This document shows positions 50,476 to 55,591 of a stretch of DNA of 64,000 bases, piece by piece; the stretch's first letter is position 1; each line of letters starts with the position of its first letter. A program made the translations under genes and the position numbers. Below the pieces are notes generated by a model, which ran no database searches, had not been told where the DNA came from, and saw only the letters and a list, made by a program, of their open reading frames with translations. This stretch comes from Lysobacter concretionis Ko07 = DSM 16239 (GTDB lineage: Bacteria > Pseudomonadota > Gammaproteobacteria > Xanthomonadales > Xanthomonadaceae): the NCBI RefSeq assembly GCF_000768345.1, contig NZ_AVPS01000006.1, positions 124,001 through 188,000 on the forward strand. The letters are read 5' to 3'.

Positions 50476-51651
50476 TCAGCCGCGCGCCTTCAGGGCCGTC
50501 ACCGCCGGCAGCTCCTTGCCTTCCAGGAACTCCAGGAACGCGCCGCCGCCAGTGGAGATGTAACTCACCCGGTCGGCGATGCCGTACTTGTCGACCGCCG
50601 CCAGAGTGTCGCCGCCACCGGCGATCGAGAACGCGTTGCTGTCGGCGATGGCGCGGGCCAATGCCTCGGTGCCCTTGCCGAACGCATCGAACTCGAACAC
50701 CCCGACCGGGCCGTTCCAGACCACCGTCCCGGCACTCTTGATCATTGCCGCGTAGCGCGCCGCGGTGTCCGGGCCGATGTCGAGGATCATGTCGTCCGCG
50801 CCGACCGCATCGACCGCCTTCACCGTGGCCGGCGCATCGGCCGCGAACGCGGGTGCGACCACCACGTCGGTCGGCACCGGGATGTCGGCGCCGCGCGCTT
50901 TCGCGTCGCTCATGATCTGCTTCGCGGTGTCGACCAGGTCCATTTCCACCAGCGACTTGCCCACCCCATGCCCCATCGCGGCGATGAAGGTGTTGGCGAT
51001 GCCACCGCCGACGATCAACTGGTCGACCTTGCCCACCAGCGAGGACAGCAGCTCCAGCTTGGTGCTGACCTTGGAGCCGGCGACGATCGCCAGCAGCGGC
51101 CGCGCCGGCTGGTCGAGTGCCTTGCCAAGCGCATCCAACTCCGCCATCAACAACGGGCCACCGGCCGCGACCGGCGCGTGCCGGATGACGCCATGGGTGG
51201 AGGCCTGCGCACGGTGTGAGGTGCCGAACGCGTCCATCACGAACACATCGCACAGCGCGGCATAACGCTTCGACAAAGCCTCGTCATCGGCCTTCTCGCC
51301 GACGTTCATGCGGCAGTTTTCCAGCAGCACCAGCTGGCCGGGAGCGACCTCGACACCGTCGACCCAGTCCTTGACCAGCGGCACGTCGATGCCGAGCAGC
51401 TCCGACAGCCGCGCTGCCACCGGTGCCAGCGAGTCGGCTTCGCTCCAGTTGCCTTCGGTCGGCCGACCGCGGTGCGACATCACCATCACCGCCGCGCCCT
51501 TTTCCAGCGCCAGCTTCAGGGTCGGCAGCGCCGCCGTGATGCGCTGCTCGGAGGTGATCCGGCCCTCGGCGTCGATCGGCACGTTCAGATCCTCGCGGAT
51601 CAGCACGCGTTTGCCGGCTAGGTCGAGGTCGGTCATGCGGAGAATGGTCAT
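50476..51651 (-). CDS. pgk: Phosphoglycerate kinase
   Basis: 391 residues. Catalyses the reversible transfer of phosphate from 1,3-bisphosphoglycerate to ADP. N-terminal [35 protein letters not shown] and hinge/nucleotide motifs [35 protein letters not shown] and [20 protein letters not shown] are intact. The ATG at 51651 ([14 protein letters not shown]) is preceded by GGAAA; the frame stays open for a further 500 bp upstream but only through repeat DNA. A repeat hairpin (51816-51884) lies upstream in the orientation of this gene. Confidence 0.96.
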
Positions 51652-51815
51652 GGGCGTTTCCGTGATGGCGATAAGAGCCGGGCGATCGCCAGGCTCGGGC
51701 CGGCCATTGTCCCGTCCGGGGAGGAGTCGGGCAAACCTTGCACGGTTGACTGAGGTGCAGGCCCGGAAAGGCGTGGCAAGCCATTGGCCAAAAAAATCCC
51801 GGACAGCGGACGAGC

Positions 51816-51884
51816 GCGCGCACGGGGCATCGCCGCAAGTCGCTCCACGATATTCGCTTGGTTTCGCCGATACCCCGCACACGC
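51816..51884 (-). repeat. Conserved-loop hairpin repeat, copy 3 (upstream of pgk)
   Basis: On the - strand, arms of 17 nt (51868-51884 and 51816-51832) pair completely if four G.T pairs are allowed. The core between them reads CAAGCGAATATCGTGGAG and CGACTTG. Arms are unrelated in sequence to copies 1 and 2, the core is nearly the same. Confidence 0.75.
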
Positions 51885-52023
51885 CTGCACACTGACGATG
51901 CGGTTGATGGAGCAAAGCGGGAAGCCATCGGGCTGGCGGACATCTCGACCCGAAACCGACCGTCCGATACAGGCCAAAGCGGACGCAACCAAAAGGCCAA
52001 ACGAGCGCCGGCGTACTCGGGTA

Positions 52024-52092
52024 GCGCCTGTCGGGTGGCTTGGACACCAGGCGAATTTCGTGGAGCGACTGGCCAAGCTGCCCGGCAGGCGC
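52024..52092 (+). repeat. Conserved-loop hairpin repeat, copy 1
   Basis: Arms 52024-52043 and 52073-52092 form a 20-bp stem with 17 Watson-Crick and three G.T pairs. The core is CCAGGCGAATTTCGTGGAG-CGACTGG. The 3' flank CGAATCTCTCCCG (52098-52110) is also shared with copy 2. Confidence 0.8.
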
Positions 52093-52208
52093 GCTCACGA
52101 ATCTCTCCCGCCGCGGCTCACTCCATGGCCAACAAGCGATCCCACCGCAGATCACATGCCGAGCAACCATCGCAGCCGGAAGAAAAACAGGCGCCGATCC
52201 ACTGCCAC

Positions 52209-52277
52209 GCGCCTGTCGGGTGGCTGGGACATCAGGCGAATTTCGTGGAGCGACTGGCCAAGCTGTCCGGCAGGCGC
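52209..52277 (+). repeat. Conserved-loop hairpin repeat, copy 2
   Basis: Arms 52209-52228 and 52258-52277 pair at 19 of 20 positions (four as G.T). The core is identical to copy 1, and the copy lies 185 bp further on in direct orientation with the same 3' flank CGAATCTCTCCCG. Confidence 0.8.
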
Positions 52278-52355
52278 AATCGCGAATCTCTCCCGTCGCC
52301 GCCCTTCATTGCAACAACATTCCGACCCGACCCGGCTATTTCACGTCGCGGCAAC

Positions 52356-52402
52356 TACCCACATATTGTGTTGACTAACCAACAAAACACGATATGTTGT
52401 GC
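52356..52402 (+). promoter_or_regulatory. Two NrdR-like boxes overlapping the nrdAB promoter
   Basis: Box 2, ACACGATATGTTGTGC (52387-52402), fits the 16-bp NrdR palindrome ACACWATATATWGTGT at nearly all key positions. Box 1, TACCCACATATTGTGT (52356-52371), keeps the right half. Starts are 31 bp apart, three helical turns, the spacing typical of NrdR pairs. A -35 TTGACT (52371-52376) and -10 TATGTT (52393-52398) with a 16-bp spacer lie within, so NrdR binding would block RNA polymerase. The nrdR gene is not in the window. Confidence 0.75.
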
Positions 52403-52403
52403 C

Positions 52404-52590
52404 CGTCGGTGCCGATCCTCGCGGTCGGCTGAAAAGGGAAGCCGGTGTGAATCCGGCGCTGCCCCGCAGCGGTAAATGGAAACGAACGCCGTCTTGGCAC
52501 TGGGGCAACACGCCCTGGGAAGCGACGGCCAGTAGGAAAGTCAGGCGCTGCCTGCCACGTCCAGAGCCCGAAGACCTGCCGACAACCGCG
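52404..52590 (+). ncRNA. Cobalamin (AdoCbl) riboswitch upstream of nrdA
   Basis: The conserved core is plain: GGGAAGCCGGTGTGAATCCG and CGCTGCCCCGCAGCGGTAA in the first half and the B12 box AGCCCGAAGACCTGCC near 52565-52580. A stable hairpin ACCGCGCG/CGCGCGGT (52585-52608) adjoins the aptamer and may serve as expression platform; no T run follows, so control of translation or Rho-dependent termination is more likely than an intrinsic terminator. It governs a B12-independent class I reductase, which makes sense if the genome also encodes a B12-dependent class II enzyme. Confidence 0.92.
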
Positions 52591-52857
52591 CGATGCACAC
52601 CGCGCGGTGACCGGCCAGGGAGTCTTCGGGGGAAGACGGTCGGTGTCGCAGCACCCTGCCTCGCGGCGGGGTGACAGGGCGTCCACCGACGCCAGCCGAC
52701 ACCTTCCGCTTCAGACCCGGAAACTCCACCGCCCGCGGGGGCGTGGCCGTGCCGTCGGCACCGCGTTCTTTGCGCGTGTCGGTGGCGCGACACGCCTCCG
52801 TGCGTCGTCCTTCGAGGGAAGGCCGACGACCCGTGCGCCCTGCACCGGAGCCCACCC

Positions 52858-55428
52858 ATGACCGTCCTCCACGCCGAGACAGACCTCGCACCACCCGGCA
52901 TCGCCGCCACCCACTCGGCCGAAGTGGTTCCCACCATCCCCGGCCACGCCCGCGAATCTGCCGATTCCGTCAGCACCGAAGCGACCGTGACCGATGCGAC
53001 CGGGAATACCGCATCCACCGCAACTGCGCCATCGGGCGACAACGACCAGCCCGGCTTCACCCTCACTCCGCCCGCCGCCGCCCTGAGCATGCGGGTGACC
53101 AAGCGCAACGGCAGCCGCGAGCCGGTCGACCTCAACAAGATCGTGCGTGCGATCACCCGCTGCAGCGACGACCTGTACGCGGTCGACCCGATGCGCGTCG
53201 CCACCCGTACGATCTCCGGCCTGTACGACGGCGCGACCACGTCCGAGTTGGACGAGCTGTCGATCCGCACCGCCGCCCTGCTGACCGCCGAGGAGCCCGA
53301 ATACGGCCGCCTTGCCGCGCGCCTGCTCGCCGGCGTGATCGAGAAGGAAGTCGCGTCCATCAACATCAACGCGTTCTCGCAATCGGTGCAGCGCGGCTTC
53401 GACCTGGGCCTGATCAACGAACGCCTGCTGGGCTTCGTGCAGGCCAACGCGCGCAAGCTCAACGACGCGATCGACCACACCCTCAACACCCGTTTCGACT
53501 ACTTCGGCCTGCGCACGGTGTACGACCGCTACCTGTTGCGCCACCCGACCGCGCGCACGGTGATCGAGACGCCGCAGCAGTTCTTCCTGCGCATCGCCTG
53601 CGCGTTGTCGGAGGACGTCAATGATGCGCTCGCGCTGTACCGGCGCATGGCTCAGCTGGACTACCTGCCCAGCTCGCCGACGCTGTTCAACGCCGGCACC
53701 ACCCACGAGCAGTTGTCGAGCTGCTTCCTGCTCGACTCGCCCGAGGACTCGCTGGAGGCGATCTACCAGCGCTACATGGACGTCGCCAAGCTGAGCAAGT
53801 TCAGCGGCGGCATCGGGCTTTCCTGGAGCCGGGTGCGCTCGCGCGGCTCGCTGATCCGCTCCACCAACGGGCTGAGCAACGGCATCGTGCCGTGGCTGAA
53901 GACGCTGGATGCCTCGGTCGCGGCGGTGAACCAGGGCGGCAAGCGCAAGGGCGCGGCCTGCGTGTACCTGGAGCCGTGGCACGCCGATGTGGAGGAGTTC
54001 CTGGAGCTGCGCGACAACACCGGCGAGGACGCCCGCCGCACCCACAACCTCAACCTCGCCAACTGGATCCCCGACGAGTTCATGCGCCGGGTGGAAGCCG
54101 ACGCGATGTGGTCGCTGTTTGATCCGGCGGTGCTGGCCCGCAACGGCACGCAGCTGACCGACCTGTTCGGCGAGGCGTTCGACCGCGCGTACCACGCCGC
54201 CGAAGCCGCCGGCCTGGCGACCCGACAGGTCAAGGCGCGCGAGCTGTACGGACGGATGATCCGCACCCTCGCCCAGACCGGCAACGGCTGGATGAACTTC
54301 AAGGACAAGTCCAACCGCGCCTGCAACCAGACCCTGCGCGAAGGCAACGTGGTGCACCTGTCGAACCTGTGCACGGAGATCCTGGAAGTGACCTCGCAGG
54401 AGGAGACCGCAGTCTGCAACCTGGGCTCGATCAACCTCGCCCACCACGTCGAGGGCAGCGGCATCGGCGATGTTGCCCGGTTCGATTTCGACAAACTGGC
54501 CGAGACCGTGCGCCTGGCGGTGCGCCAGCTGGACCGCGTGATCGACCTGAATTTCTACCCGATCGACACCGCGCGCCGGGGGAACCTCAAATGGCGGCCG
54601 GTCGGTCTGGGCGCGATGGGCCTGCAGGACGTGTTCTTCAAACTGCGGCTGCCGTTCGACTCCGGGCCAGCGCGCGAGCTGTCCCGGCGGATCGCCGAGG
54701 AGATCTACTTTCACGCCCTGTCCGCCTCCTGCGAGCTGGCCATCGAGCAGGGTCGGCATCCCGCGTTCGGCGATACCCGCGCCTCGCAGGGCGAACTGCA
54801 GTTCGAGGCATGGGACGTGACCCCGACCGACCTCGCCCGCTGGGACGCACTGCGCTCGCGCATCCGCGAAAACGGCCTGCGCAACTCGCTGCTGATCGCG
54901 ATCGCCCCGACCGCCACCATCGCCTCAATCGCCGGCTGCTACGAATGCATCGAGCCGCAGGTGTCCAACCTGTTCAAGCGAGAAACGCTGTCGGGCGATT
55001 TCCTGGTGGTCAACAAGTACCTGGTCGAGGAGCTCAAGACGCTCGGGCTGTGGACGCCGGACCTGCGCGACGCGGTGAAACTGGCCGACGGCTCGATCCA
55101 GGGTATCGGCCAGATTCCCGAAGCGCTGCGGCAGGTCTACCGCACCGCCTGGGAGTTGCCGATGCGCTCGCTGATCGACATGGCCGCCGACCGCGGTGCC
55201 TTCATCGACCAGAGCCAGTCGCTGAACCTGTTCATCGAGAACCCGAGCATCGGCCCGCTGTCGTCGATGTACATGTACGCGTGGAAGCGGGGCTTGAAGA
55301 CGACTTACTACCTGCGCTCGCGGCCGGCGACGAGGATTGCCAAATCGACCGTCAGCGCGCCGGTGCCCAACGCCGAAGCGATCGCCTGCTCGCTGGAGAA
55401 TCCGGAGAGCTGCGAAGCCTGCCAGTAG
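52858..55428 (+). CDS. nrdA: Ribonucleotide reductase class I, alpha subunit
   Basis: 856 residues. Reduces ribonucleotides to deoxyribonucleotides with NrdB. After an unusual Ala/Thr-rich extension of ~75 residues comes the ATP-cone (MRVTKRNGSREPVDLNKIVR) and the catalytic barrel: SSCFLLDSPEDSLEAI (active cysteine), FSGGIGLSWSRVRSRGS, then AVCNLGSINLAHHV (second cysteine) and IAPTATIASIAGCYECIEPQ. The C-terminal redox pair is in ESCEACQ. GGAG lies 6 nt before the ATG. Followed by nrdB after 163 bp that contain a REP pair. Expression should respond to NrdR and cobalamin. Confidence 0.96.
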   Translation: MTVLHAETDLAPPGIAATHSAEVVPTIPGHARESADSVSTEATVTDATGNTASTATAPSGDNDQPGFTLTPPAAALSMRVTKRNGSREPVDLNKIVRAITRCSDDLYAVDPMRVATRTISGLYDGATTSELDELSIRTAALLTAEEPEYGRLAARLLAGVIEKEVASININAFSQSVQRGFDLGLINERLLGFVQANARKLNDAIDHTLNTRFDYFGLRTVYDRYLLRHPTARTVIETPQQFFLRIACALSEDVNDALALYRRMAQLDYLPSSPTLFNAGTTHEQLSSCFLLDSPEDSLEAIYQRYMDVAKLSKFSGGIGLSWSRVRSRGSLIRSTNGLSNGIVPWLKTLDASVAAVNQGGKRKGAACVYLEPWHADVEEFLELRDNTGEDARRTHNLNLANWIPDEFMRRVEADAMWSLFDPAVLARNGTQLTDLFGEAFDRAYHAAEAAGLATRQVKARELYGRMIRTLAQTGNGWMNFKDKSNRACNQTLREGNVVHLSNLCTEILEVTSQEETAVCNLGSINLAHHVEGSGIGDVARFDFDKLAETVRLAVRQLDRVIDLNFYPIDTARRGNLKWRPVGLGAMGLQDVFFKLRLPFDSGPARELSRRIAEEIYFHALSASCELAIEQGRHPAFGDTRASQGELQFEAWDVTPTDLARWDALRSRIRENGLRNSLLIAIAPTATIASIAGCYECIEPQVSNLFKRETLSGDFLVVNKYLVEELKTLGLWTPDLRDAVKLADGSIQGIGQIPEALRQVYRTAWELPMRSLIDMAADRGAFIDQSQSLNLFIENPSIGPLSSMYMYAWKRGLKTTYYLRSRPATRIAKSTVSAPVPNAEAIACSLENPESCEACQ

Positions 55429-55491
55429 GCGGTACCGCCACACCATATCCGGCGACCTCCCCATCTATCCCGTCGCCGACTTCCCTCCGTT

Positions 55492-55564
55492 GTAGGAGCG
55501 ACGTAAGTCGCGATTTCCACAGCCCGGCGATCGTCGAGGCATTCGCGACTTACGTCGCTCCTAC
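55492..55564. repeat. REP pair between nrdA and nrdB
   Basis: GTAGGAGCGACGTAAGTCGC (55492 on, +) and its inverted copy ending CTCCTAC (55543-55564) face each other 51 bp apart. Together they can fold into one larger hairpin in the nrdAB transcript; the second ends 27 bp before the nrdB ATG. Confidence 0.85.
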
Positions 55565-55591
55565 GACAGCCCCCGCTTCCAAGGATCCACC

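Follow-up and report, generated by a model that had tools for sequence, protein, structure and literature searches.

Between pgk and nrdA, in a 64,000-nt stretch of the Lysobacter concretionis genome (the window), lie three short palindromes that share a core sequence on stems that change from copy to copy, which raises the question of what kind of element keeps its loop constant on variable stems and on which strand it is selected. The initial annotation had seen two of the shared cores on the plus strand and one on the minus strand, and we find them at 51838-51857 (−), 52051-52070 (+), and 52236-52255 (+), with 0 chance matches to the core in shuffles.

Three hairpins between pgk and nrdA

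A hairpin model search (model R1) delimits each of the three hairpins to 71 nt (24 + 23 + 24 nt), the constant loop of 23 nt being placed by the core match and by reading the pairs. Copy 3 (51815-51885, −; 68.5 bits, E = 2.8e-13) has its loop at 51839-51861 (−) and its core aimed at the pgk start, with 17 Watson-Crick, 4 G.T, and 2 other among its 23 pairs. The core of copy 1 (52023-52093, +; 73.6 bits, E = 1.8e-14; loop at 52047-52069, +) is aimed at nrdA, and copy 2 (52208-52278, +; 61.7 bits) carries its loop at 52232-52254 (+); the stretches containing copies 1 and 2 form a 94-nt direct repeat (D1) that is 91% identical, 185 nt apart. Copies 1 and 3 face outward and represent pair types A and B, respectively, as assigned by eye, and the centre between them (51886-52022) is without unusual fold (row L023, z = 1.3).

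Pooling the three copies in core orientation, with 23 pairs each, we observe 53 Watson-Crick pairs, 11 G.T, 0 A.C, and 5 purine-purine mismatches; an earlier count of 12 non-Watson-Crick positions, 11 of them G.T, is therefore right for G.T and too low in total, which comes to 16. The arms of copy 3 had been described as unrelated to those of the other copies, which is overstated: copies 1 and 3 agree at 28 of 48 arm bases and are also recovered as inverted repeats of each other (71% across 73 nt), and are thus diverged rather than unrelated.

Copies 1 and 2 had also been seen to point towards the nrdAB promoter. The promoter-like sequence of nrdA, TTGACT-16-TATGTT (52371-52398, +; hexamers at 52371-52376 and 52393-52398), and the cobalamin riboswitch (RF00174; 52390-52597, +; 107.1 bits, E = 2.7e-27), a neighbour outside the hairpin element, both lie 3' of the hairpins, and a role in an nrdA leader is not supported. 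With the source genome labelled G000, its congeners G001 to G009, and a genome from another genus of the same family G059, the order from hairpins to promoter-like sequence is identical in G006 and G009. Within 52360-52597, before nrdA, palindromes lie over the promoter-like sequence and are followed by the riboswitch; we take these palindromes to resemble NrdR boxes. A GTAG-type palindrome pair lies between nrdA and nrdB (55489-55567), where the hairpin model gives a weak false match (27 bits). When window positions 51000-53200 and six loci were compared with Rfam, only the neighbouring cobalamin riboswitch scored above the gathering score, and matches to miRNA precursors and ar14 were weak and far below it.

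Family distribution, stem covariation, and strand asymmetry

The source genome (3.03 Mb) holds 34 cores with at most two mismatches, 31 of them exact, and 37 copies by the hairpin model. An exact-core scan of one genome per species across 84,980 species returned 82 stretches, and the 80 matches listed belong to Lysobacter, Halieaceae (Pseudohaliea, Halioglobus), Pandoraea, some gammaproteobacterial MAGs, and one Rhodobacteraceae MAG; the last is a chance match, with Watson-Crick pairing at just 7 of 23 pairs. With at most the best 150 candidates per genome scored, the model finds the family in 17 of 20 chosen genomes, at 3 to 76 copies per bearing genome: 76 in a Pseudohaliea genome, 48 in one Halioglobus MAG, 4 to 10 in each of the six bearers among nine congeners, and 7 in G059, with no match in G003, G004, and G005. 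In 369 genomes drawn from the gammaproteobacteria (best 13 candidates scored), matches occur in G000 and G264 only, indicating that the family is rare and patchy. A looser pattern matched 17 of these 369 genomes, and the 15 besides G000 and G264 had 1 or 2 matches each, below the reversed control, and were rejected. G264, a distant gammaproteobacterium, has 16 copies, nearly identical to one another, with a lengthened version of the loop, AAAGCGAGTTATCG(C/A)AGATTGT..GAGCGACT. Direct tandem copies 174 to 238 nt apart occur in the source genome (G000:C1:438-443 kb and C20:455 kb), which suggests local duplication.

Each copy in the family has a stem of 23 to 26 bp with a 23-nt motif at its apex, and in most copies this motif reads C(C/A)AAGCGAATWTCGTGGAGCGAC. 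Sixty chosen copies align gap-free (alignment A1); since they were picked by exact-core or near-exact searches, 19 core bases are invariant by construction, and the search with up to two mismatches (31/34 exact) and a search with two loop positions left open are the less biased measures of loop constancy. Pairing holds in 95.1% of the 1,440 cells of this alignment, and covariation scores 1.045, compared with 0.233 for column shuffles and 0.159 to 0.219 with the partner slid by 1 to 3; the slide control somewhat favours the true register, the hairpin having been read from the same sequences, but the gap is still nearly 5-fold. The number of pairs changed on both sides, in contrast, does not discriminate (24 versus 23.2 shuffled). 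Within the six groups, mean arm identity is 0.39 to 0.83; G000 compared with its congeners gives 0.58, and the remaining between-group comparisons give 0.25 to 0.46, with shuffled arms at 0.27. Taken together, the covariance-model search that the initial annotation had proposed yields many matches with compensatory stem changes.

The bias between G.T and A.C holds across the family. On the core strand we count 176 G.T versus 23 A.C over the six groups, all biased alike (55:5, 23:2, 50:11, 13:3, 18:1, and 17:1), which indicates selection on the folded form of one strand; since copies within a group are related, these counts are not independent. Relative to the subfamily consensus, 149 cells carry an alternative Watson-Crick pair, and single changes produced G.T in 90 cases (60 C to T and 30 A to G) and A.C in 16, with a further 36 pairs broken by transversion; since both routes to G.T are observed, C deamination alone is insufficient for the bias. 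The same counts bear on template-switch repair of quasi-palindromes, which could maintain a perfect-palindrome repeat whose folded strand is unselected. Such repair would yield matched arms without selection, and in one Halioglobus copy (L116, ~217-287) the arms can pair along 59 positions, 4 of them mismatched, and reach into the usual 5' flank; however, the repair account predicts G.T and A.C in equal number and leaves the loop unexplained. The strand bias refutes it as sole cause, and we consider this account highly improbable.

Folding with RNA parameters favours the core strand over its complement in copies 1, 2, and 3 (−51.8 versus −37.4, −38.9 versus −31.2, and −41.8 versus −25.8 kcal/mol), with z scores against shuffles of −6.0, −2.2, and −1.6, strong for copy 1 only. 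DNA parameters give the same asymmetry (−28.0 versus −22.2, −19.1 versus −14.1, and −22.5 versus −12.8). The proposal of selection on a folded RNA with a recognised loop thus stands as regards a strand-specific fold and a conserved loop, but the bias cannot serve as proof of RNA.

Several copies are orthologous between congeners by their flanking proteins, the purF copy also in G059. In 11 orthologous sets, drawn up by hand and leaving out members with too-distant stems or a doubtful partner (G000 and G059 at purF, G000 at rlmI, G002 at one locus, and G000 at xerC type B and pgk type B), 38 comparisons show 39 paired double changes, 42 paired single changes, and 18 breaks; changed sites number 21 of 874 in the loop and 139 of 1,748 in the arms. 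Five sets with the left-out, more diverged members added give 144 paired double changes, 35 paired single changes, and 25 breaks in 32 comparisons, and some of these added members may have been replaced instead of inherited. An A.C mismatch at xerC in G001 corresponds to A-T in its sister G008 and to G-C in G002 and G007, a stepwise compensatory change. That copies at fixed places change in a matched way suggests that they have a role once inserted. The outward pair at pgk-nrdA is present in G000, G006, and G009, and the hairpin model finds no match there in G001, G002, G005, and G008; the distance from the cobalamin riboswitch motif to the called pgk start is 139 to 200 nt in these four genomes, 479 nt in G009, and 785 nt in G000. 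By our own gene calls, the pgk-nrdA gene order differs in G003, G004, and G007.

Two loop positions change together. The search with both positions open found 78 copies in 8 of 11 genomes, of which 58 are A..T, 19 G..G, and 1 A..C, and the combinations A..G and G..T occur in none of the 78. All 26 copies in G001, G002, G007, and G008 are A..T and all 11 in G006 and G009 are G..G; G000 (31 A..T, 2 G..G, 1 A..C) and G059 (6 G..G, 1 A..T) are mixed. A pgk tree, which as a single gene is weak as a species tree, sets G003, G004, G005, G006, and G009 apart from the rest (97/96), so that a single switch could account for most of the loop-type distribution. The type A arms at pgk-nrdA differ between G000 and G009 at 4 of 46 bases, and the loop type differs as well. 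We read the linked switch as a putative reader and the loop changing together, direct contact between the two positions inside the loop being the alternative. In its fullest form this would be a new recognition system, in which one dedicated trans-acting factor reads the 23-nt loop of all the dispersed hairpins as RNA and co-evolves with it; such a system would explain a paired loop switch across most copies of a lineage in which a hairpin at a given place retains its own stem, and we regard it as rather unlikely.

Genomic placement and possible functions

Nearly all copies are intergenic: in 172 of 177, any overlap with a called gene is 30 nt or less (codon-based calls made within this analysis), the exceptions being four copies in G000 and one in a MAG, and the coding density of the window is 89%. 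The 153 copies with both neighbours lie between codirectional (55 and 32), convergent (46), and divergent (20) genes. The nearest gene boundary is 3' of the core in 121 copies (86 stops and 35 starts) and 5' of it in 32 (15 stops and 17 starts), and in G264 a stop codon lies 22 to 118 nt ahead of the core in 15 of 16 copies. Facing stop codons are no proof of function, since a hairpin at the 3' edge of the element together with promoter avoidance predicts the same.

Outward-facing pairs 107 to 337 nt apart occur in Halieaceae and Lysobacter; among the matches listed, Pandoraea has four such pairs 538 to 748 nt apart, and the Halieaceae partners are unlike each other by eye. A conserved hairpin at pair centres was looked for and not found, a strong case at L217 being the unrelated GTAG palindrome. 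In G000, stems recur among copies, as do, to a lesser degree, about 45 nt of 5' flank, and from such recurrence at unrelated places we infer dispersal; among the matches listed, the 5' flanks differ between clades by eye.

Two lineages carry further structures around the element. In Pandoraea, a second hairpin with a near-constant loop, CCAGCAGWTGCGNAGCACGTGGGG, and a changing stem lies 5' of the core in 12 of 14 aligned copies (loci L091, L093, L094, L114, L124, L126, L132, and L153), the two exceptions being one incomplete and one diverged sequence. In G264 (L197-L215), many gene ends consist of a stop, a C-rich stretch such as CCACCACCCACC, and then the element, with CCACC after 15 of 18 stops near an element versus 9 of 23 other stops; the C-rich stretch looks like a possible Rho-loading sequence. 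Six of seven inspected C-rich gene ends of G264 that are without the canonical core have a second hairpin aimed at that stop, with the loop CATAAAGCGAGCG(C/T)AGCGAGACAG; AAAGCGA and AGCGA(G)AC are common to both loops.

A loop that stays constant while its stem is free suggests a reader, and we tentatively favour a REP-like dispersed element that works as one folded strand, probably of RNA, whose loop would be read by a putative factor and whose most likely job is at transcript boundaries. The free-sequence stem of 23 to 26 bp would present the 23-nt apical motif to the trans-acting reader; the unit, often an outward-facing hairpin pair, would be placed in an intergenic gap, and after insertion selection would retain copies for fold and loop. 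The hairpin would bind, process, or stop RNA running outward toward the neighbouring gene. Several observations count against this reading. Among the 101 copies closest to a stop codon, 86 would appear in that gene's mRNA as the wrong strand, an excess that element geometry alone could explain. Only 2 of 150 copies are followed by a T-tract, DNA folding parameters reproduce the strand asymmetry, the count of pairs changed on both sides does not discriminate, and the lack of model matches in G003, G004, and G005 indicates that the element is dispensable.

We place this RNA boundary element ahead of a second reading, itself quite possible, in which the core strand folds as DNA. The hairpins would then be the termini or the cargo of a mobile element that is non-autonomous, cut as single-stranded DNA by a putative enzyme that recognises the loop, much as TnpA-REP and IntI recognise theirs. 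Mixed gene orientation and within-genome spread fit mobile DNA equally well, and the shared stems and flanks in G000, the 16 near-identical copies in G264, the presence of the element at pgk-nrdA in some congeners and its absence in others, and the asymmetry under DNA folding parameters all speak for it. The outward pairs, unlike by eye among the matches listed, also resemble REP heterodimers as the relevant parts of one source describe them (PMC3733652). No mover was found, however. Within the genus, 3 of 7 bearers lack Y1_Tnp (TnpA-REP), as do 6 of 11 others, including the 76-copy genome, and no core lies near any of the 11 Y1 loci examined; transposase presence does not track element presence, and a RAYT/Y1 transposase was therefore rejected as mover. 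Gene families recurring beside copies in at least two groups include no transposase by eye, xerC aside, and a gene common to copy neighbourhoods across genera was likewise rejected, the recurring families, xerC among them, looking like housekeeping genes by eye. Viral contigs contain no exact core, one hairpin searched against plasmids and phages gave no match at E = 0.001, and compensatory change at fixed places demands selection after insertion.

On another reading, every hairpin would form the 3' portion of a gene for a small RNA, transcribed from a dedicated promoter within the 5' extension, and the loop would serve as seed or protein site. The partly conserved 5' flank in G000 and the closeness of the hairpin's 3' side to the next gene, more often at stops than at starts, would fit. 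In contrast, no promoter was read by eye in the flanks, which vary between clades, and a T-tract after the hairpin (at least four T in 6 nt) is found in 2 of 150 copies, so that the copies do not qualify as intrinsic terminators; at least four A precede the 5' foot in 11 of 150. Small RNAs do not usually come in dozens of copies with a single loop, and we hold a small RNA gene to be improbable.

Matched substitutions at fixed places point to a host role, and the set-wise change of the loop points to a partner.

Comparison with known repeats and hairpins

The hairpin family matches none of the known kinds tested, and in the open PubMed Central literature we found no description of the core, the core string occurring only in unrelated papers. 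It is like REP, REPIN, and BIME in forming short intergenic palindromes, dozens per genome, in inverted and often unlike pairs with a strand-asymmetric hairpin, and unlike REP in its family stem of 23 to 26 bp, its constant 23-nt loop, and its lack of a constant tag and of any matching transposase found. REPs have stems of 5 to 13 bp, loops of 2 to 20 nt, and a GTAG or CGTC tag, as outlined in sections of PMC3733652. Among 171 copies, GTAG lies close to the 5' foot in 20 and CGTC in 5, and close to the 3' foot GTAG lies in 4 and CGTC in 17 (complements in 6 and 4). The source genome has a separate GTAG palindrome family with 151 pattern sites, and the pair between nrdA and nrdB shows this palindrome.

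An attC site is a folded single strand that is read by structure, with a largely free stem sequence; its boxes, GTTRRRY and RYYYAAC, are kept and its loop is variable. The family shares with attC the folded single strand with a free stem and differs in that the loop is constant here and the boxes are constant there; both attC box motifs occur in 2 of 171 copies. The IRE, the histone stem-loop, and boxB are protein-read RNA hairpins with a constant loop and a free stem, and the family resembles them in this respect. In contrast, these hairpins sit in fixed parts of RNAs, whereas the family is dispersed as a repeat with no fixed gene orientation.

NEMIS is a structured intergenic repeat, and the family is like ERIC, NEMIS, and other structured repeats in being intergenic, palindromic, and possibly transcribed; to our knowledge, a constant loop on changing stems is not known in ERIC, NEMIS, and similar repeats. 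Those traits of ERIC and other structured repeats appear in portions of PMC2267715. Intergenic repeats are usually dismissed as REP-like with conserved stems, and this family reverses the rule, with a fixed loop and a free but paired stem on one strand; it may prove to be a new system of RNA and protein, or else a new one in which single-stranded DNA moves.
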